A stretch of 64,000 bases of DNA. Origin: Microbacterium sp. 4R-513 (GTDB lineage: Bacteria; Actinomycetota; Actinomycetes; Actinomycetales; Microbacteriaceae). Both the position numbers and the translations under genes were made by a program. This document shows, piece by piece, positions 49,581 to 64,000 of the stretch. A model generated the notes under the pieces. It was not told the DNA's origin. It saw nothing but the letters and a program-made list of their open reading frames with translations, and searched no databases. The stretch spans positions 248,001 through 312,000 of the forward strand of contig NZ_CP049256.1 of assembly GCF_011046485.1 (NCBI RefSeq), given 5' to 3'. The stretch's first letter is position 1; every line of letters begins with the position of its first letter.

Positions 49581-50741
49581 TCAGCGACCCGGGGTCGCGA
49601 CGAAGAGGTCGCCCGACCCCGTCACCCCGAGGGTCCCCTCGTCGGGCGTCACGAGGACGGCGCAGCCCGGGATGAGGGTCGCCTGGGCGCCGGTCGCGGA
49701 TGCCGTCACCTCGACCTCGCCCGAGGTCACGAGCGCGATCGCGACGCCCTCGAGGGGCACCCGGGTCGCGGCATCCGTCTGCACCTCGGCGTGGCTCAGG
49801 GCGAAGTCGGCGAGGCCCGGCACGCCGAACCGCTCGACGCCGTCGTGCACCTCGGGCTTCAGCACGGGCGGGGGGCCGGGATTCGGATCGAGCACGGCGA
49901 GCAGTTCGGGGACGTCGATGTGCTTCGGCGTGAGTCCCCCGCGCAGGACGTTGTCGCTCGCGGCCATGAGCTCGACGCCGAGCCCCTGCACGTAGGCGTG
50001 CAGCACGCCTGCAGCGACGAACAGCGCCTCGCCCCGCTGCAGCACGACGAGGTTCATGAGCAGTGCGACGACGACGCCCGGGTCGCCGGGGTAGGCGGCG
50101 TTCAGGTGGCGCGAGAGCGCGAGCTCCGCGGCGAACTCCGCGTCCTCGGCGCCGGCGGCGGCGGCGACGATCGCGTCGACGTCGGCCTGCGCCGTGCCCG
50201 AGAGGAGCCAGGCGATCGTGTCGCGGAGGGATGCCGCGGCATCCGTCCCCTCCAGACGCTGCGCGAGCGGGCGTCCGGCGTCCCCGAGCAGCGCGATGAG
50301 ACGGCGCGTCGCGTCCAGTTCGCGCAGCCCCGCCAGAGCGGTGAAGGTCTCGCTCACGGCGACGATGAGCTCCGGCTTGTGGTTGTCGTCGCGGTAGGTG
50401 CGCTCGGGGGCGTTGCGGGCGACCCCGGCAGCCTCCTCGCGCGCGAACCCGGCTTCGGCCTGCTGCTTCGACGGGTGCGCCTGGATAGAGAGGGGGGATG
50501 CCGCGGCCAGCACCTTCAGCAGGTACGGCAGCTTCTTCGGCGCACCCGCCGCGGCGCCCTCGTCCGCGAGCCACTCGCCGAGGCTCCGGCCGTCCGGCAC
50601 GATCGCGGGGTCCGCCGGGTGGTCGCCGTACCAGACCTCGGCCTCGGGCCTGCCGCTCGGCGCGCGCCCCTCCAGGTCTGCGATGAGGGTCGTGGACCCC
50701 CAGGCGTAGTCGCGCGGCTCGTTCACGAGGGAGACCAGCAT
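49581..50741 (-). CDS. manA: Mannose-6-phosphate isomerase, class I
   Basis: 386 residues. Interconverts fructose-6-phosphate and mannose-6-phosphate, the entry to GDP-mannose. Zinc-site motifs IQAHPSKQQAEAGF and DNHKPELIVAV are present, as is GVELMAASDNVLRGGLTPKHIDV with the conserved catalytic Arg. The start is set by TAGGCT six bases upstream. It lies next to whiB2 and divergent from the glycan locus, whose gmd/ColD-like genes need GDP-mannose; no mannose-1-phosphate guanylyltransferase is in the window. Confidence 0.95.
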   Translation of the reverse strand: MLVSLVNEPRDYAWGSTTLIADLEGRAPSGRPEAEVWYGDHPADPAIVPDGRSLGEWLADEGAAAGAPKKLPYLLKVLAAASPLSIQAHPSKQQAEAGFAREEAAGVARNAPERTYRDDNHKPELIVAVSETFTALAGLRELDATRRLIALLGDAGRPLAQRLEGTDAAASLRDTIAWLLSGTAQADVDAIVAAAAGAEDAEFAAELALSRHLNAAYPGDPGVVVALLMNLVVLQRGEALFVAAGVLHAYVQGLGVELMAASDNVLRGGLTPKHIDVPELLAVLDPNPGPPPVLKPEVHDGVERFGVPGLADFALSHAEVQTDAATRVPLEGVAIALVTSGEVEVTASATGAQATLIPGCAVLVTPDEGTLGVTGSGDLFVATPGR

Positions 50742-53547: not shown

Positions 53548-54564
53548 ATGCCTCTTGCCTCTGACACCCCCGCAGCCTCCATGACGACGACTCCGTTCGA
53601 CCCCACCACAGCGACGATCGCGATCGTGACGTACAACCGTTCGGGGCTCCTCACCCGCCTGCTCGAGTCGATCATCCGGATGGACCCGAAGCCCGGTCAC
53701 ATCGTCATCATCGACAACGCGTCGACCGACGGCACCACGGAGGTGGTCGAGTCCTTCCGTGAGCGCCTCGCCCCCAGCGAGCTCGTCTACCGCCGCCTCG
53801 AGACCAACACGGGCGGGTCCGGGGGCTTCAGCGAGGGCATGCGTACCGCGTACGAGCTGGGCTCGACGTGGATCTGGCTCATGGACGACGACGTCGAGGT
53901 CATCCCCGACGGGCTGGCCAAGATGGGCAAGTGGGCGCCGCGCTTCAAGAGCATCCAGGGCCGCCGGTACGACTACGACGGCAGCGAGTTCTACTGGCAG
54001 TACCGCGTGGCCGAGCCTCTCGGCATCCCGATCCCGTTCGCTCCCTCCGGCTTCGACGAGTCGGGGTTCAAGGAGATGAACTCGGGATGCTTCGAGGGCA
54101 TGTTCATCCACCGCGACATCGTGACCCAGATCGGCCTGCCCGACCCGCGCTTCTTCATCTACTGGGACGACCAGCTCTACGGCTGGCTCGCCTCGCGCAA
54201 GACCACCTCGGTCATCGTGGATGAGTTCGTGCTCCGCCGCACGCGCGAGATCAAGCAGTGGGACATGGGCATCCGCCACATGAACGCCTCGAGCGACGCG
54301 TACCGGTACTACATCATGCGCAACCGCGCGATCATCAAGCACTACTACCGCTCGCTGGGCGTCTACCGGCGCGTGCCTTTCGCTCTCGGCACGGCGCTCA
54401 CGTTCGCCAAGGAGCTCATCCGCCTCGTCTTCGTCGAGCGCAAGCTCCGCGGCACGAGCAATCTCTTCCGCGGTCTTCGCGACGGCGGCAAGATCTCGCG
54501 CGACCGGTCGTGGCGGCCCATGCCGCCCCTCGTCGCGGGAACGGCCGATCAGCCGACGGGATAG
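53548..54564 (+). CDS. Family 2 glycosyltransferase, GlfT1-like
   Basis: 338 residues. A GT-A fold: ATIAIVTYNRSGLLTRLLES at the start, the GGSGGFSEGM loop, and the metal-binding WIWLMDDDVEV (DDD at about residues 113-115). A second conserved stretch RFFIYWDDQLYGW carries the probable catalytic acid. The pattern resembles the galactofuranosyltransferase GlfT1 (Rv3782), which also lies beside an RfbD/RfbE-type ABC exporter, as here. Donor specificity is inferred. It ends convergently with wzt, overlapping by 16 bases. Confidence 0.85.
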   Translation: MPLASDTPAASMTTTPFDPTTATIAIVTYNRSGLLTRLLESIIRMDPKPGHIVIIDNASTDGTTEVVESFRERLAPSELVYRRLETNTGGSGGFSEGMRTAYELGSTWIWLMDDDVEVIPDGLAKMGKWAPRFKSIQGRRYDYDGSEFYWQYRVAEPLGIPIPFAPSGFDESGFKEMNSGCFEGMFIHRDIVTQIGLPDPRFFIYWDDQLYGWLASRKTTSVIVDEFVLRRTREIKQWDMGIRHMNASSDAYRYYIMRNRAIIKHYYRSLGVYRRVPFALGTALTFAKELIRLVFVERKLRGTSNLFRGLRDGGKISRDRSWRPMPPLVAGTADQPTG

Positions 54565-55325
54565 TCGGCGTTGTAGCGGTCCAGCACCTCGCCGAGCGAG
54601 GCATCCAGAGCAAGACGCCCCTTGTCGAGGTAGAGGCCGCGCGTGCAGAAGCGGCGCAGGTCGCGCTCGTTGTGGCTGACGAAGAACAGCGTGCGGCCGT
54701 CGGCGAGCAGCTCGTCGATGCGCGCGTAGCACTTCTCGCGGAAGGCCTTGTCGCCGACCGCGAGAACCTCGTCGACGAGCAGCACCGGCTCGTCGAGCTG
54801 GGACACGACCGAGAACGCCAGGCGGACCTTCATGCCGTTCGAGAGGTGCTTATAGGGCGTGTCGACGAAGTCGGCGATCTCGGCGAAGTCGATGATCCCG
54901 TCGAACCGGCGGTTGACCTCGGCCCGCGACATCCCGTGCAGCCCAGCCGTCAGCCGGACGTTCTCGCGAACCGTGAGGTCGCCGACGAACCCGCCGGTGA
55001 TCTCGATGAGCGGCGCCACTCCCCCGTTGACCCGGACCGTGCCCTCGTCGGAGAGCAGCACTCCGGCGACGAGCTTGAGCAGCGTCGACTTGCCCTGCCC
55101 GTTGCGCCCGACGACCCCGATCGACTCGCCGGGGGCTACCGTGAACGAGACGTCGCGGAGCGCCCAGAACTCGCCCGGGCGCGCGCGCCGCTCGGCGCCG
55201 GCGAACAGGTCCTTGAAGTTCCTGCGGCCGCGCCGATTCCGGCGGAAGCGGACACCGAGGTTCGTCACCTCGATCGCGTGCTCGGACGCGCGGGCAGTCG
55301 TGGAAGCGGTGGATGCCTCTGCCAT
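54549..55325 (-). CDS. wzt: ABC polysaccharide exporter, ATP-binding protein (Wzt/RfbE-like)
   Basis: 258 residues. Walker A GRNGQGKST, signature LSNGMKVRLAF and Walker B VLLVDEVLAVGD are intact. It is the short Wzt form without a C-terminal carbohydrate-binding domain, so export is probably not terminator-sugar dependent. The ATG at 55325 overlaps the permease stop (ATGA). With the permease and the GlfT1-like gene it resembles the mycobacterial galactan exporter set Rv3781-Rv3783. Confidence 0.93.
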   Translation of the reverse strand: MAEASTASTTARASEHAIEVTNLGVRFRRNRRGRRNFKDLFAGAERRARPGEFWALRDVSFTVAPGESIGVVGRNGQGKSTLLKLVAGVLLSDEGTVRVNGGVAPLIEITGGFVGDLTVRENVRLTAGLHGMSRAEVNRRFDGIIDFAEIADFVDTPYKHLSNGMKVRLAFSVVSQLDEPVLLVDEVLAVGDKAFREKCYARIDELLADGRTLFFVSHNERDLRRFCTRGLYLDKGRLALDASLGEVLDRYNADYPVG

Positions 55326-56117
55326 CAGAGCTCCTTGAGGACGGGTCGCTCGAGGCTGCGGAACACCCAGATGCCGAGGGCGAGGAAGAGGAAGCTGAGG
55401 ATGACGGCCGAGACGACGGCGAGGGTGTCCCACGTCTCCGGGAAGAACGCCACCCGGTAGAGCGTGAAGATCCCCGACAGCGGATTGAGTGCAGCGAGCT
55501 GCTCGAAGGCGCCCGGCAGGTCGGAGACGCCGTAGATGACCGGCGACGCGTAGAAGAGCGCCCGGAGGATGAGGCGAGTCGTTCGCTCCAGGTCGGTGTA
55601 GAGCACGCAGAGGGGGGCGACGAGGAGGCCCAGTCCCACGAGCAGGACGGTCTGGAGCAGGACGGCGAGGGGGGAACCAGAGGATGCCCCACCCGACGTG
55701 TGCGCCCGTCGCGATGGCGAAGAACGCGAGCACGGGGAGGGAGCAGAGGAACTCGATGCCCTTGCTGAGGACGATGCGGTTGATCCAGATCGTCCGCGGG
55801 ATCGCGGTCGAGCGGACCAGCCGGGCGTCTTTGCTGAAGGCCTTCGTGAAGTCCGACACGGCCGAGTTGAACCACACCCAGGGAAGGAGCGCCGAGATGA
55901 GGAACACGATGTACGGCTCGTGGCCGACGGTGCGCTGGAAGATCTGCGTGAAGACGAACCAATAGATGCCGCTCATGACGAGCGGGTCGAGGACCGACCA
56001 CAGATAGCCGAGCGCACTCGTGGCGTAGCGGACGCGAAGGTCGCGCGCCGACAGCAACCACAGCGAGTGGAGGTAGCGCCGGGGCGATCCAGGGGCGCCG
56101 ACGGCGGCTGTGGTCAC
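55325..56117 (-). pseudogene. wzm: ABC polysaccharide exporter permease (Wzm/RfbD-like), interrupted by a +1 frameshift
   Basis: The ABC-2-type permease of the polysaccharide exporter, six TM helices. From the GTG at 56117 it reads MTTAAVGAPGSPRRYLHSLW ... VGWGILWF, then loses frame at the G6 run 55669-55674 (C6 on the coding strand). The missing half (GLGLLVAPLCVLYTDLERTT ... SLERPVLKEL) continues in another frame to the stop at 55325. With five C's the protein is 263 residues, the normal length. The same one-base excess breaks aroA and the GDP-sugar reductase gene, so a consensus error or slippage is likely. Confidence 0.85.
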
Positions 56118-58713: not shown

Positions 58714-59745
58714 TCAAGCCTTCCAGTCGACCTTGTCGACGGCGTGCTCCCGGCCACCCGCCAGCGCCGCGACGTCGTGGTCGACCATGATCTCGGCGAG
58801 CCGGGGGGCGGTGACCGCCGGCCTCCATCCGAGCTCGCGCTCGGCAAGGCCATAATCGCCCACGAGGGCGTCGACCTCGGTGGGCCGCAGGTAGCGCTCG
58901 TCGAACTTGACGTACTTCTCCCACTCGAGTCCGACCCGCGCGAACGAGAACTCGAGGAAGTCGCGCACGGTGTAGGCCGTGTTCGTTGCGACGACGTAGT
59001 CCTGAGGCGTGTCGTGCTGCAGCATCCGCCACATGGCCTCGACGTATTCGGGGGCGTAACCCCAGTCGCGCACAGCGTCCAGGTTGCCCATGTAGAGCTC
59101 CTGCTGCTCGCCGGCCGCGATCCGTGCCACCGCTCGCGTGATCTTGCGGGTCACGAACGTCTCGCCTCGGCGAGGGGACTCGTGGTTGAAGAGGATGCCG
59201 TTGACGGCGAAGAGGTCGAAGGCTTCGCGGTAGTTCTTCGTGATCCAATACGAATAGACCTTCGCCGCACCATAGGGCGAACGGGGATAGAAGGGCGTGG
59301 ATTCGTTCTGCGGTGGCGGCGTCGCGCCGAACATCTCGGAGCTGCTGGCCTGGTAGTAGCGGCAATCGAGGCCGGCGAGCTTGACCGCCTCGAGGAGGCG
59401 AACGCTGCCCAGTCCGGTCGTGTCACCGGTGAACTCGGGCTCGTCGAAGCTGACCCGTACGTGCGACTGCGCTGCCAGGTTGTACACCTCGTCGGGGCGG
59501 ATCGTGCTCAGCAGCGTCACCAGTCGCGAGCCGTCCGTGAGGTCGCCGTAGTGGAGCGTGAGGCGCGAGTGAGGCTCGTGCGGATCGGTGAAGAGGTGAT
59601 CGATCCGATGGGTGTTGAAGGTGGACGCACGACGGATCAGGCCGTGGACCTCGTAACCCTTTGCGAGGAGCAGCTCGGCGAGATAGCTGCCGTCCTGTCC
59701 CGTGATGCCGGTGACGAACGCGCGCTTCGAGGTGGTCTGGGTCAT
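58714..59745 (-). CDS. gmd: GDP-mannose 4,6-dehydratase
   Basis: 343 residues. Converts GDP-D-mannose to GDP-4-keto-6-deoxy-D-mannose, the branch point to GDP-fucose, GDP-rhamnose, GDP-perosamine and GDP-colitose. The NAD(P) site [15 protein letters not shown], the SSSEMFG segment and the catalytic YGAAK are present. The ATG at 59745 has AGGAAG upstream. It is last in the colC-like / colD-like / gmd unit. Confidence 0.96.
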
Positions 59746-59793
59746 GTGGTTGTGCTTCCTGTTGTCTCGCGGGCGTGCTCGGCACGCCGGGTA

Positions 59794-60963
59794 TCAAAGT
59801 TCGTCGATCACCGAGGCGAGCAGGTCCAGCTCGGCGGGGATCGGATAGTGGTGGTTACCCACGAAGAGCCCGTCGACGTGCACCTTATCGGCGGCAGGGA
59901 GAGAGTCCGGGACCGCTGCATTCAGGTGCTTCATGACGGGGTTGCGCACGAAGTTGCCCGCGACGATCGGCCGTGAGTCGATGCCGGCAGCGGTGAGGGC
60001 TCTTGCCAGCTCGGCCCGCCTGCCTTCCAGCCGGCCTTCGAGGATGAAGGAGAATCCGAACCAGCTGCTTTCGCCGTTCTCACGCTGGATCCGCAGGTCA
60101 TCACGCCCGCCGAAGAGTTCGACGAAGCGGCGCCCGTTGTCGCGGCGGCCCGCGACGAGCGCAGGAAGCTTCTTCAGCTGCTCGATGCCCAGTGCACCTG
60201 ACATCTCGAGCGGGCGTACGTTGTACCCCGGCAGCACGAACCGGAACAGGTCATCGAACGGCTCACCCGACTTCGGGTGGATGAGGTTGTCGGCGGGGAG
60301 CTCTCGCGTCCAGCCATGTGCTCGAAGCGAGACGGCGGCTTGGTAGACGAACTCGTCGTCGGTTGTGACGAGTCCGCCCTCCATGGTCGAGATGTGGTGG
60401 GAGAAGAAGGCGCTGTACGTGCCGGCGATGCCGAAGGTGCCTGCACTTCGTCCCTCGAGGGTTGCACCCAGCGACTCGCAGTTGTCCTCGATGAGCACCA
60501 GCCCGTGCTCCTTGGCGAGGGCCGACAGCGTGGTCAGGTCCGCTGGGTTGCCGAGCAGGTTCACGGCCAGGATCGCCCGGGTCCGGGGCGTGATCGCCGC
60601 GGCCACCAGTGCAGGGTCCATGTTCAACGTGTCGAGGTCGATGTCGACGAAGCGCAGGCGGAGACCGAGCTGATGAACGGGGTAGAAGGTCGTCGCCCAT
60701 GAGACCGCCGGCACGATGACCTCGTCGCCGGGATTGAGATCGATGTCGGGGTCCACGACGGCCGCGGCCAGGGCGATCAGATTGGCGCTGCTGCCCGAGT
60801 TGACCATGACGGCATGGCGCGTGCCGAGCGCCTCGGCGAACTGCTCCTCGAAGGTGCGCACGAGTGGCCCCATCGTGAAACGGCCACTCTCGATGACGCG
60901 TTGCAGCGCCGCATACTCGGCCTCGTCCCACGTCGTGGTCGCGAGTGGATAGCGGGTCTCCAT
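59794..60963 (-). CDS. colD: DegT-family PLP enzyme with His in place of the Schiff-base Lys (ColD-like 3-dehydratase)
   Basis: 389 residues. The fold is DegT/DnrJ/AHBA type (VMVNSGSSANLIAL, VLIEDNCESLG). Where aminotransferases carry the PLP lysine, it reads GTYSAFFSHHISTMEGG, with His at 189-190. This substitution, with length near 390, matches ColD, the GDP-4-keto-6-deoxy-D-mannose-3-dehydratase of colitose synthesis. Only one cysteine is visible (about residue 162), so it lacks the iron-sulfur ligands of the related E1/DdhC 3-dehydratases. The ATG at 60963 has GGAGG about ten bases upstream and lies one base from the upstream gene's stop. gmd makes its substrate. A GDP-perosamine-type transaminase would need the Lys, so it is unlikely. 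Confidence 0.8.
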   Translation of the reverse strand: METRYPLATTTWDEAEYAALQRVIESGRFTMGPLVRTFEEQFAEALGTRHAVMVNSGSSANLIALAAAVVDPDIDLNPGDEVIVPAVSWATTFYPVHQLGLRLRFVDIDLDTLNMDPALVAAAITPRTRAILAVNLLGNPADLTTLSALAKEHGLVLIEDNCESLGATLEGRSAGTFGIAGTYSAFFSHHISTMEGGLVTTDDEFVYQAAVSLRAHGWTRELPADNLIHPKSGEPFDDLFRFVLPGYNVRPLEMSGALGIEQLKKLPALVAGRRDNGRRFVELFGGRDDLRIQRENGESSWFGFSFILEGRLEGRRAELARALTAAGIDSRPIVAGNFVRNPVMKHLNAAVPDSLPAADKVHVDGLFVGNHHYPIPAELDLLASVIDEL

Positions 60964-60964
60964 A

Positions 60965-61907
60965 TCAGCGAGCCTCCGTGGTCTGGGCGGCGGAAGCAAG
61001 GTACGCCTCATAGGAGCGCCGCATACCTTCCACGAGCGAGGTCGAGGGCTTCCACCCGAAGTCGGCGGCAAGCGACGAGTCCATCAGCTTCTGATGCATG
61101 CCTGCGGGCTTGGATGGATCCGTCACAAGCTCGCACTCGTAACCCACGGTCTCGAGCGCCGCGCGGTAGTAGTCGAGAACGCTGTGGTCATCACCCTGAC
61201 CGACGTTCATCAGCGTCGGCCAGTCCCCTATCGAGTCCAGGTGTTCGACCACCCAGTCGGCGAGATCGCCGACGTAGGTGAACTCGCGGCGCGCCGTTCC
61301 GTCGCCCCAGACGTCGATCGATGTGGCGCCCGATTCCTTCGCGCGGTGCGCCTTCGCGATCGTCGCCGCCACGAGGTGGGCGCGCTCGAGAGAGAAGTCG
61401 TCGTGGGGTCCATAGAGGTTCGAGGGGATCACGACGCGGTAGTCGTACCCGAGTTGAGCGGACACGTACTCGCAGTAGCGAGCGGACGTGATCTTGGCCA
61501 GAGCGTAGCCCTCGTTCGTCGGCTCGAGGGGGGCTGCCAGGACGTCCCCCCTCGACGAGCGGCTGGCGGTAGTCCTTCGGGTACATGCACGAACTGCCGA
61601 AGTACAGGAAGCGACGCACGCCGGCTTCGGTCGCGGCCGAGAGCAGGTTCGCATCCATCACGATGTTGTCCATCAGGAACCCCGACGGGTCGGCCACATT
61701 GGCGGCGATCCCGCCGACCCGGGCCGCCGTGTGGACCACGAGGTCGGGCTGCGTGCGACCGACGAGCGCGCGAACCGCCGCCTGATCGCGCAGGTCAGCG
61801 TCGGCCCGCGTCGCGACAATGAGCTCGTCGGTGCGGCCGGACCGGGTCCATGCGGCCCGGATCGCCCGTGCGAGCATGCCGTTGCCGCCGGTCAGTAGTA
61901 CACGCAT
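60965..61907 (-). pseudogene. GDP-L-colitose/GDP-L-fucose synthase-like NAD(P)-dependent epimerase/reductase, +1 frameshift
   Basis: Family SDR enzyme that epimerises and reduces a GDP-4-keto sugar. The ATG at 61907 starts MRVLLTGGNGMLARAI; HTAARVGGIAANVADP, FGSSCMYPKDYRQPL and, in the next frame, EPTNEGYALAK (catalytic YxxxK) and PSNLYGPHDDFSLERAH follow. The break is at the C6 run 61547-61552 (G6 on the coding strand). With five G's it reads QPLVEGDVLAAPLEPTNEGY and gives 313 residues. Next to a ColD-like gene it may be ColC rather than Fcl; sequence alone does not decide. Confidence 0.82.
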
Positions 61908-62141: not shown

Positions 62142-63425
62142 ATGGCAGAACCAGACGAAAATCGGGATGCCCACTCGCAGACCGGGAACGGCCTCGGAGG
62201 GCACGTGCGCTCCCATGCGCGCGGTCTGTCCGCCGTTGCACTCGCCAGCGTGCTGGGCGTCGTCGCGTCATTCGTCTTCCAGGTGGCGAGCGCACGCTAC
62301 CTCGCTCCCGTCGATTTCGGCCTGCTCTCGGCCTTCCTCGTGGTGGTCAGCACCGCGGCGGTGGGCAGCTCGTCCCTCCAGAACATCGTGACTGTTCAGA
62401 CCGCCGCTGCCCTTGTCGCCCCTGCGCGGGTGCGCCCATCCCGACGCATGCCATGGGAGGCGATCGCTGTCGGCGTCGGCGGAGGCGCCGTCGTGGCGGT
62501 CGTCTCGCCATGGCTCGCAACCGCCCTCGACACCTCGCCCTCGGTGATCTTGGCGGCAGCGGTCTGCATCCCGCTAAGCTTCGTCTTCGCCGACGCGCTG
62601 GGCCTCCTGCAGGGGTCGGGCGACGTGTCCCGCGCCGTCTGGTGGTCGACGATCTCTCTCGTCGCCCGCATCGTGCTGCTGTTCGTCGCCGTCCTCATCG
62701 GCGCCGGCCTGGCGGGCGTCATTGGTTCTGTCGTGGCCGCGACGGCGGTTTCCGTCGTCGGGGCGTTGTGGTCGGCCCGCCGCATCGCGCGGCCCGTAGA
62801 AGGCGCCTTCACCGCGAACGGCATCACTATCCTGGTCCTGACCGTCGCATTCGCATGGCTCACGACTTCGGACGTCATTTTTCTTCGTGCGGGCGGCGCT
62901 GACGCTCTGGTGGGTACATACGCGTCTGTCACGGTCCTCGTGAAGGCGGGCTTCCTTGTCCCCTCCACCCTGTCGCTGTACCTTCTCCCTCGATTCGTCC
63001 GCAATCGCGGCAATCGCCGTCTGTCGCGGATCGGTGTCCTCGCGACCCTGGCTCTCTCGCTTGCGACAAGCCTCGCCATGACGGCGTTCTTCGCCCTTTT
63101 CGGCCCGTGGCTCATCCACGTGCTGTATGGCGAGTCGTTCGCTTCCGCAGCGGACCTGCTCGTGCCGGTTTCGCTCGCGTACCTCCCGTGGATGGCCGCT
63201 CAGGGGATGCTGATCAAGATGACGTCGACGGCGTCGCGAGGCGGCGCAGCGATCCTGATCGTCGCGGTCCTCGCGCAGTGGATCACCTTCACCGCCGTGG
63301 TGCCCGATGTGTACGCGATGCTTGCGTGGTTCGCGGGCATCGGCGTGGTCGTTCTGACGATCTTCCTGATCCTCGACAGCCTCCAAGCGCGGCATGCAGC
63401 GGCCGCAGTAGGGAATGACACATGA
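62142..63425 (+). CDS. Polysaccharide flippase (Wzx/MATE-like oligosaccharide translocase)
   Basis: 427 residues with about 12 TM helices. It has the RARYLAP-type polysaccharide-synthase opening (VFQVASARYLAPVDFGLLSAFLVV) and a long series of hydrophobic segments, with the pattern LYGESFASAADLLVPVSLAYLP near the C-terminus. It probably flips lipid-linked sugars across the membrane, so the locus has both a Wzx-type and an ABC-type export route. The start at 62142 has GGAG nearby. The stop overlaps the next gene (ATGA). Confidence 0.88.
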   Translation: MAEPDENRDAHSQTGNGLGGHVRSHARGLSAVALASVLGVVASFVFQVASARYLAPVDFGLLSAFLVVVSTAAVGSSSLQNIVTVQTAAALVAPARVRPSRRMPWEAIAVGVGGGAVVAVVSPWLATALDTSPSVILAAAVCIPLSFVFADALGLLQGSGDVSRAVWWSTISLVARIVLLFVAVLIGAGLAGVIGSVVAATAVSVVGALWSARRIARPVEGAFTANGITILVLTVAFAWLTTSDVIFLRAGGADALVGTYASVTVLVKAGFLVPSTLSLYLLPRFVRNRGNRRLSRIGVLATLALSLATSLAMTAFFALFGPWLIHVLYGESFASAADLLVPVSLAYLPWMAAQGMLIKMTSTASRGGAAILIVAVLAQWITFTAVVPDVYAMLAWFAGIGVVVLTIFLILDSLQARHAAAAVGNDT

Positions 63426-64000
63426 CAGTGAATCGCGACGGCATCACCGGCTATGTGATGGGCGGCCTGGGGAATCAGGTGTTCATCCTGGCCGCCGCGT
63501 GGGAGCAGTCCCGTCGGCTCGGAGTGCCGCTCTACCTCGACCGGTCGCACTACGCCGTCGGCGGCACGTTCGCTTACGGCCTCGACGCTTTTGAGCACCC
63601 CGGTCGCGTCCTCGCACGGGCCGAGTCCCCGTGGCGCTCCGTTCGGATCAACCGCGAGCGGGTGCTTCCGTTTCCGCGCCGACCCTGGGGCCACATCTAC
63701 CTCGAGGGTGATGGCGACACCTACAATCCCGCTGTTCACGACGTGAAGGTCGGCACAACACTCATCGGCTACTTCCAGTCGCCCCGCTACTTCCCGTCCG
63801 TCCGCGACGAACTGGGCGCCGCAATGCTTGCCGCGCCCGACACGCCTGCCGAGTCGGCACGCATCGCCGAGATGTTGGACTCGCCCGCGATCTCTCTTCA
63901 TCTGCGCCGCGGCGACTACCTCGCGGTATCAGTCGACCGGCAGTTCATCGCGTCCGTCGCATACGCGATCCGCGGCGTCCGGCTTCTTCGGGCGATGGGC
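63422..64000 (+). CDS. Family 11 glycosyltransferase, alpha-1,2-fucosyl/colitosyltransferase-like (partial)
   Basis: The first 193 codons only; the gene runs off the right edge. GT11 signatures are VMGGLGNQVFILAAA near the start, TLIGYFQSPRYF, and the donor-binding ISLHLRRGDYLAV. These enzymes use GDP-fucose, or GDP-colitose in WbgN of E. coli O55. With gmd, the ColD-like enzyme and the reductase upstream, either donor is possible. The ATG at 63422 overlaps the flippase stop by four bases. Confidence 0.85.
   Translation, partial: MTVNRDGITGYVMGGLGNQVFILAAAWEQSRRLGVPLYLDRSHYAVGGTFAYGLDAFEHPGRVLARAESPWRSVRINRERVLPFPRRPWGHIYLEGDGDTYNPAVHDVKVGTTLIGYFQSPRYFPSVRDELGAAMLAAPDTPAESARIAEMLDSPAISLHLRRGDYLAVSVDRQFIASVAYAIRGVRLLRAMG

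Follow-up and report, generated by a model that had tools for sequence, protein, structure and literature searches.

A probable Microbacterium operon of the GDP-colitose type for an envelope polysaccharide

The rare envelope sugar colitose counts as a component of Gram-negative O-antigens. Here, the question is whether the pathway to this sugar is also encoded in an actinobacterium. It is raised by a stretch of 64,000 nucleotides from Microbacterium sp. 4R-513 (NZ_CP049256.1, positions 248,001 to 312,000; below, the window, G000:C1:248001-312000 of a single-contig genome of 3.91 Mb). On its minus strand, running from position 61907 to 58714, the genes for a reductase of the short-chain dehydrogenase/reductase family, a DegT-family pyridoxal phosphate (PLP) protein and Gmd follow each other (Table 1). 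A sequence-only reading had interpreted them as a colitose pathway. The analysis presented here suggests that the PLP enzyme is almost certainly ColD, that the operon very probably belongs to the GDP-3,6-dideoxyhexose type and that GDP-L-colitose, destined for an envelope polysaccharide, is its likely product.

The PLP enzyme consists of 389 amino acids, and the site that holds the PLP lysine in aminotransferases reads AFFSHHISTMEGG, which contains His189-His190. Two mutant chains of ColD, 3b8x (H188N) and 2r0t, the latter with a lysine there, mark this position; the altered letter is the first histidine of the pair, and His189 is aligned with His188 of the known ColD. The protein is 51% identical to ColD of Escherichia coli O55 (424 bits), matches the ColD structure 2gms with E = 1e-128 and has ColD entries as its closest fold matches. 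In a comparison of families, it scores 432.8 bits for ColD, 175.6 bits for E1 and 138.9 bits for perosamine synthase. Furthermore, 51 ColD rows that do not belong to its clade define 106 near-invariant columns, and it agrees with them at 103; this is the fairer count, since the agreement of 100/100 was obtained when its own clade helped to define the columns. The protein contains a single cysteine, at position 162, which is common to all 83 ColD rows and to eight DdhC rows, whereas seven of the eight cysteine columns of the DdhC row lack a cysteine in the window's protein and in all 83 ColD rows. The His-His pair in place of the PLP lysine, a length near 390 residues and the lack of iron-sulfur cysteines, from which ColD had been proposed, are thereby confirmed.

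The phylogeny points in the same direction. In a tree of 114 rows, the 83 rows with a Ser-His-His (SHH) motif, the window's enzyme among them, lie on one side of a branch with an SH-aLRT value of 79, which is under the mark of 95. In a tree of 47 rows, for which 21 of the 83 SHH rows were chosen and five long-branch lysine rows removed, the 21 SHH rows including the window's enzyme group together with a support of 95/98. The enzyme belongs to the ColD clade, apart from the lysine, DdhC and second His-His clades, so that a clustering with lysine-containing transaminases, named beforehand as a result that would refute the colitose reading, was seen in neither tree. One ColD is present in the genome, the next match reaching 39% over part of the length.

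The second His-His clade is deeply separate and comprises 11 rows (L061-L065 and L067-L072), which are 31-36% identical to the window's ColD and carry the motif V[AG]HH[LM]STIEGG or one near to it. Its hosts are Bacteroidota, candidate phyla, Woesearchaeota and one Prochlorococcus record; gmd is found in six of the 11 loci and a reductase leaning toward the GDP-L-fucose synthase Fcl in eight. We know of no study of this dehydratase group. Another set (L046-L050, L053 and L090) combines SHH-type ColD relatives with an Fcl-leaning reductase; no gmd was found in these loci (L090 stood outside that test), four of the seven reductases have a phenylalanine at the position of the catalytic Tyr136, and the enzymes possibly catalyze a different reaction. 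Finally, L019, L024, L027, L029, L034, L040, L047 and L066 each combine a ColD-type dehydratase with one of the DdhC type (PAHH), so that GDP and CDP routes to dideoxyhexoses may meet in one cluster.

The gmd gene was correctly recognized before, its product scoring above the cut-off of TIGR01472; the genome contains one clear copy, with a next match of 30% identity. The reductase stop adjoins the ColD start, and 48 bases separate ColD and gmd. This spacing makes a single transcription unit, as had been predicted, plausible, but the reductase within it is split over two frames. The SHH motif is present in 61 of the 74 related loci from named genomes. In 50 of the 61, gmd is part of the locus, in 50 a reductase lies on the same strand at a distance of at most 300 bases, and 48 contain both genes in the locus. 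The other 13 (L042, L046-L056 and L060) do not have both, some of them lying on short contigs. Given the E-value to ColD and these 48 loci, chance is not an issue.

The proposed route would start with Gmd, converting GDP-mannose to GDP-4-keto-6-deoxymannose. ColD, using pyridoxamine phosphate, a catalytic histidine in place of the lysine and glutamate as amino donor, would then remove the hydroxyl group at C3 in a sequence of dehydration, hydrolysis and ammonia loss that needs no iron-sulfur reductase; this mechanism follows a review (PMC8987622) and the titles of the PDB entries. Inversion at C5 and reduction at C4 by the ColC-like enzyme would yield GDP-L-colitose. A neighboring glycosyltransferase of family GT11 would probably attach the colitose to a glycan, which could be moved out by the flippase-like protein and/or an ABC exporter.

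For the reductase, it has to be asked whether it resembles ColC or Fcl. In a tree of the C-terminal piece with 107 rows, the 28 ColD partners from actinobacteria are united in one clade (100/99). Together with ColC of E. coli O55, this clade is found on the 68-row side of a branch (90/88; 69 rows with the long-branch L043, 97/96). The opposite side contains Fcl of E. coli K-12 and 21 of 21 fetched fucose synthases from ColD-free Microbacteriaceae. A search of 120 Microbacteriaceae genomes with the same piece gave 35 genomes with a match, namely the own genome, eight ColD-positive genomes (50-58% identity) and 26 that were not ColD-positive (37-43%). Compared with E. coli Fcl, the 21 fetched from these 26 show 53-68% identity and are, by likeness, ordinary fucose synthases. 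They share the reductase family and the catalytic residues with the window's enzyme, whereas the latter differs by its identity of 37-43% to the 26 and its place on the ColC side. On the NCBI fucose-synthase model NF047922 (cut-off 500), the intact reductase of M. trichothecenolyticum (L001) scores 304 bits and that of M. aurantiacum (L007) 256 bits; the scores of the window's split pieces (Table 1) are no fair test. The set of Ser, Cys, Tyr, Lys and His is kept, with Tyr, Lys and His in the C-terminal and the GSSC motif in the N-terminal piece; four of these sites presumably correspond to Ser107, Tyr136, Lys140 and His179 of Fcl. Since the sole match to the reductase piece in the genome is the ColD partner itself, which lies outside the fucose-synthase side, a plain fucose pathway was rejected as the principal interpretation.

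The epimerase cysteine divides the actinobacterial reductases. At this site, the 28 rows show Cys in eight, Ala in 17 and Val in one, two being cut before it. With the N-terminal piece of the window counted in, Cys is present in nine and lost in 18 of 27 readable sequences; a recount with duplicates kept agrees, and the catalytic His occurs in 40 of 40 aligned loci. The cysteine is found in 21 of 21 fucose synthases and in 39 of 41 non-actinobacterial ColD partners. Hence, the operon of the window keeps the epimerase set, and a sister group has lost the cysteine. Reductases with Ala or Val at the site and the histidine kept stand beside ColD in L006, L007, L058, L086-L088, L095, L096, L098-L109 and L114-L119. 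A study on the human GDP-fucose synthase describes C116, which corresponds to Cys109 in E. coli, as the base and H186 as the proposed acid; the C116A variant has no measurable activity, and about 70% of the product of C116S is not inverted at C5 (PMC12362431).

The operons of the sister group may produce a D-configured 3,6-dideoxyhexose. Tentatively, and with low confidence, two actinobacterial versions of a GDP-3,6-dideoxyhexose pathway can be envisaged, one in the Cys-type group of the window leading to GDP-L-colitose and one in the Ala/Val group of 18 genomes leading to a D-configured sugar, e.g., GDP-linked tyvelose. If true, a tyvelose-type sugar would be made there by a route that differs strongly from the known CDP pathway. 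Furthermore, the split at the cysteine offers a direct enzymatic test of an evolutionary change in dideoxy-sugar stereochemistry. Beside the Ala-type operons, no RmlC-like enzyme that could act as a separate C5 epimerase was recognized by eye in the listed frames of L006, L007 and L058, for which no family search was made.

The GT11 gene next to the operon is a candidate colitosyltransferase. The part within the window has no Pfam match by itself; the full protein, which extends beyond the window, matches PF01531. It is 27.6% identical (E = 6e-22) to an E. coli O55 cluster gene that is annotated as alpha-1,2-fucosyltransferase and that we take to be WbgN. For WbgN of E. coli O55, a function as GT11 alpha-1,2-colitosyltransferase using GDP-beta-L-sugars is described (PMC11987014, PMC12723683). 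Among 52 genomes, GT11 was found in four of seven with a Cys-type ColD operon, in one of 18 with the Ala/Val type (on another contig) and in three of 26 that are ColD-free and have a fucose synthase. The positive Cys-type genomes are the own genome, G055 and G527, with GT11 within 4 kb of ColD, and G668, with a distance of 19 kb; in the three Cys-type genomes of the genus Cryobacterium (G678, G719 and G784), GT11 was not found in this test. On the contig of ColD, the counts are 4/7 and 0/18. The association with the Cys type has one-sided Fisher values of p = 0.012 genome-wide and p = 0.003 on the same contig, in a post hoc comparison that is uncorrected for relatedness and leaves out G624, which has GT11 on another contig and a reductase of unreadable type, cut by the contig end. 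M. trichothecenolyticum and M. paulum also have GT11 and flippase-like genes, 69-83% identical, next to the triad; with the window's GT11 as query, the remaining seven named actinobacterial loci gave no match.

The reductase, which had been taken for an intact gene, is not a single open frame. It is split over two frames that meet at 61546-61551, at a six-base run, a break that the sequence-only reading had missed. In nine of nine named actinobacterial loci used for comparison, the reductase is a single frame, which aligns here in two frames. Likewise, the gene of the Wzm-like exporter is split at about 55669-55677; the Wzm-like proteins of L001, L002 and L007 align here in two frames that meet at about 55672-55677. 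Both break sites carry a six-base G/C run, and such runs are a usual place for consensus errors. As the window contains 23 runs of six or more, however, the run alone cannot decide between error and mutation.

Several points weigh against GDP-L-colitose as the product of a working operon. The reductase belongs to a clade of its own on the ColC side, so that colitose as final product is a sugar that we infer. Its identity to ColC (42% for the C-terminal and 41% for the N-terminal piece) is close to that to Fcl (37% and 38%), and the rest of the clade shows 33-43% identity to ColC, in part with ColC scores that do not exceed those for Fcl, which makes pairwise scores alone indecisive. Likeness to ColD cannot fix the sugar either, because C3-dehydratases of Campylobacter, 62-67% identical to ColD of E. 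coli and Yersinia, act on a GDP-heptose according to PMC10440746. In addition, both the reductase and the exporter frame are broken in this sequence. As one polysaccharide cluster contains two breaks no more than 6 kb apart and the relatives are intact, the operon could be a decaying remnant, with real frameshifts in reductase and exporter and without sugar production. Against this stand the G/C runs at both breaks in a stretch of 66-68% G+C, the single-contig assembly and the open frames of ColD and gmd, and we consider a remnant possible, though improbable. The pathway is thus established as a kind, and its working in this strain depends on whether the frame break is real.

The remaining explanations concern the enzymes themselves. 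The Campylobacter precedent would allow GDP-4-keto-6-deoxyheptose as substrate and a 3,6-dideoxyheptose as sugar, and one SIS_2 gene of the genome resembles gmhA (164 bits against a cut-off of 209). This gene, however, stands by eye in an apparent mannosidase/ROK-kinase sugar-use locus, and the gmd product is a Gmd equivalog; the heptose substrate is therefore weakened to a very unlikely case. The loss of the epimerase cysteine in 18 of 27 actinobacterial ColD partners and the behavior of the human C116A and C116S variants would suit a reductase that only reduces C4 and leaves C5 unchanged, giving a tyvelose-type D-sugar after the same ColD reaction. Here, such a product seems unlikely, since the window's clade retains both Cys and His and a GT11 gene is adjacent, two tested GT11 enzymes using GDP-beta-L-sugars in the assays described in PMC11987014. 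An aminotransferase of the PerA type, leading to perosamine, or a DdhC-type enzyme would share the DegT family, and public records mostly name close relatives aminotransferase, CDP-6-deoxy-D-xylo-4-hexulose-3-dehydrase or similar. PerA was ruled out by the histidine at the lysine site, separate clades and lower scores, DdhC by the missing DdhC-specific cysteines, its separate clade and a score of 253 bits on the DdhC/RfbH model NF011936 (cut-off 423). Sequence, fold and gene context thus firmly favor ColD, and either of the two other enzymes is hardly credible.

Table 1. Operon genes and neighboring features of the window (positions in the window unless another locus is named).
Feature	Position	Strand	Basis
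ColC-like epimerase/reductase, N-terminal part	61551-61907	-	NAD(P)-binding part, GSSC motif; NF047922 104 bits, residues 2-119
ColC-like epimerase/reductase, C-terminal part	60965-61546	-	catalytic Tyr, Lys, His; NF047922 178 bits
ColD (GDP-4-keto-6-deoxymannose 3-dehydratase), almost certain	59794-60963	-	identity, trees, conserved columns, fold matches
Gmd, GDP-mannose 4,6-dehydratase	58714-59745	-	TIGR01472 501.5 bits, cut-off 415
Flippase-like polysaccharide export protein	62142-63425	+	PF01943 29.9 bits, cut-off 28.2
GT11 glycosyltransferase, candidate colitosyltransferase	63422-64000; full gene L080:1423-2310, beyond the window	+	PF01531 57 bits, cut-off 23.9
ABC-2 membrane partner, Wzm-like by eye, split	55328-56117	-	PF01061 24.6 bits on C-terminal part, below cut-off 26.9
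ABC-transporter ATPase, Wzt-like by eye, polysaccharide exporter	54549-55328, start approximate	-	PF00005 72 bits
ManA, mannose-6-phosphate isomerase, precursor supply	49581-50741	-	TIGR00218 196 bits, cut-off 116

By its gene content, the surrounding region looks like an envelope polysaccharide region. The flippase-like gene has copies of 69-72% identity beside ColD in L001 and L002; for the N-terminal part of the Wzm-like protein, the family search gave no match. The cluster further holds two Wzy_C-type proteins (the second below the cut-off), a GT2 enzyme, an acyltransferase and a methyltransferase. Past the window follow a UDP-GlcNAc 2-epimerase, a GT2 enzyme, a DUF2142 protein, UDP-galactopyranose mutase, a trio of GFO, hexapeptide and Lys-type DegT genes and RgpF. 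Besides ManA, the supply of GDP-mannose could involve a guanylyltransferase-type gene at G000:C1:379461-380570, which is below the model cut-off, and three PGM/PMM-family matches in the genome. As a separate observation, the trio of GFO/IDH, hexapeptide transferase and Lys-type DegT genes with a UDP-GlcNAc 2-epimerase nearby (L080:9968-12740 and L080:15177-17299, past the window) probably provides a second modified amino sugar, and the same part holds what by eye resembles a second Wzm/Wzt pair.

At E <= 1e-90, ColD is present in at least 22 of 299 genomes of the family Microbacteriaceae (about 7%; 12 of 78 genera), in five of 119 genomes of the genus and in at least three of 396 of the phylum, the own genome being included in each; the family and phylum counts are lower bounds, as at most six and four first-look candidates, respectively, were scored per genome. 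Among the best 120 of 8000 scored proteins, close relatives with Ser-His-His kept also occur in Cellulomonas and Agromyces. Predicting colitose from genomes is not new, since a 2020 survey already covers L-colitose among the sugar pathways of 12,939 genomes and names the TACK group as being without it (PMC7725333). In the literature on colitose combined with Gram-positive, Microbacterium, actinobacteria or biosynthesis, no Gram-positive colitose chemistry was found, subscription wall-glycan literature being outside this scope. Equally, no literature pairing colitose with Microbacterium or a dideoxyhexose with Microbacteriaceae was found. A Gram-positive colitose pathway had been called unusual; in view of the family count, the rarity is a relative one. 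That about 7% of the sampled Microbacteriaceae genomes carry a conserved ColD operon indicates that 3,6-dideoxyhexoses are probably envelope sugars of Gram-positive bacteria, too. Taken together, the colitose-pathway interpretation is supported by sequence, fold and context of ColD, with corrections regarding the reductase frame, the indirect nature of the colitose assignment and the degree of rarity.

Among known systems, the colitose operon of E. coli O55 is the closest counterpart. Its cluster contains gmd, ColC, ColD (2gms being the structural match) and the GT11-like gene, i.e., the same enzymes with the same catalytic residues, but the window differs by a Gram-positive host, a separate reductase clade, other polymer and exporter genes and the broken reductase frame. 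The C3-dehydratases of Campylobacter jejuni HS:5 and HS:11, which serve GDP-3,6-dideoxyheptose synthesis, are close ColD relatives and likewise depend on PLP and glutamate; in contrast, they act on a heptose and are accompanied by a separate C5 epimerase and C4 reductase, as set out in PMC10440746, whereas the window encodes a Gmd equivalog and a single ColC-like reductase. DdhC/E1, the CDP-4-keto-6-deoxyglucose 3-dehydrase, and SpnQ share the histidine in place of lysine and the deoxygenation at C3. They use, however, a [2Fe-2S] cluster held by four cysteines together with a reductase, as described in PMC8987622, in contrast to the single cysteine of the window's protein; SpnQ is set apart by this description.

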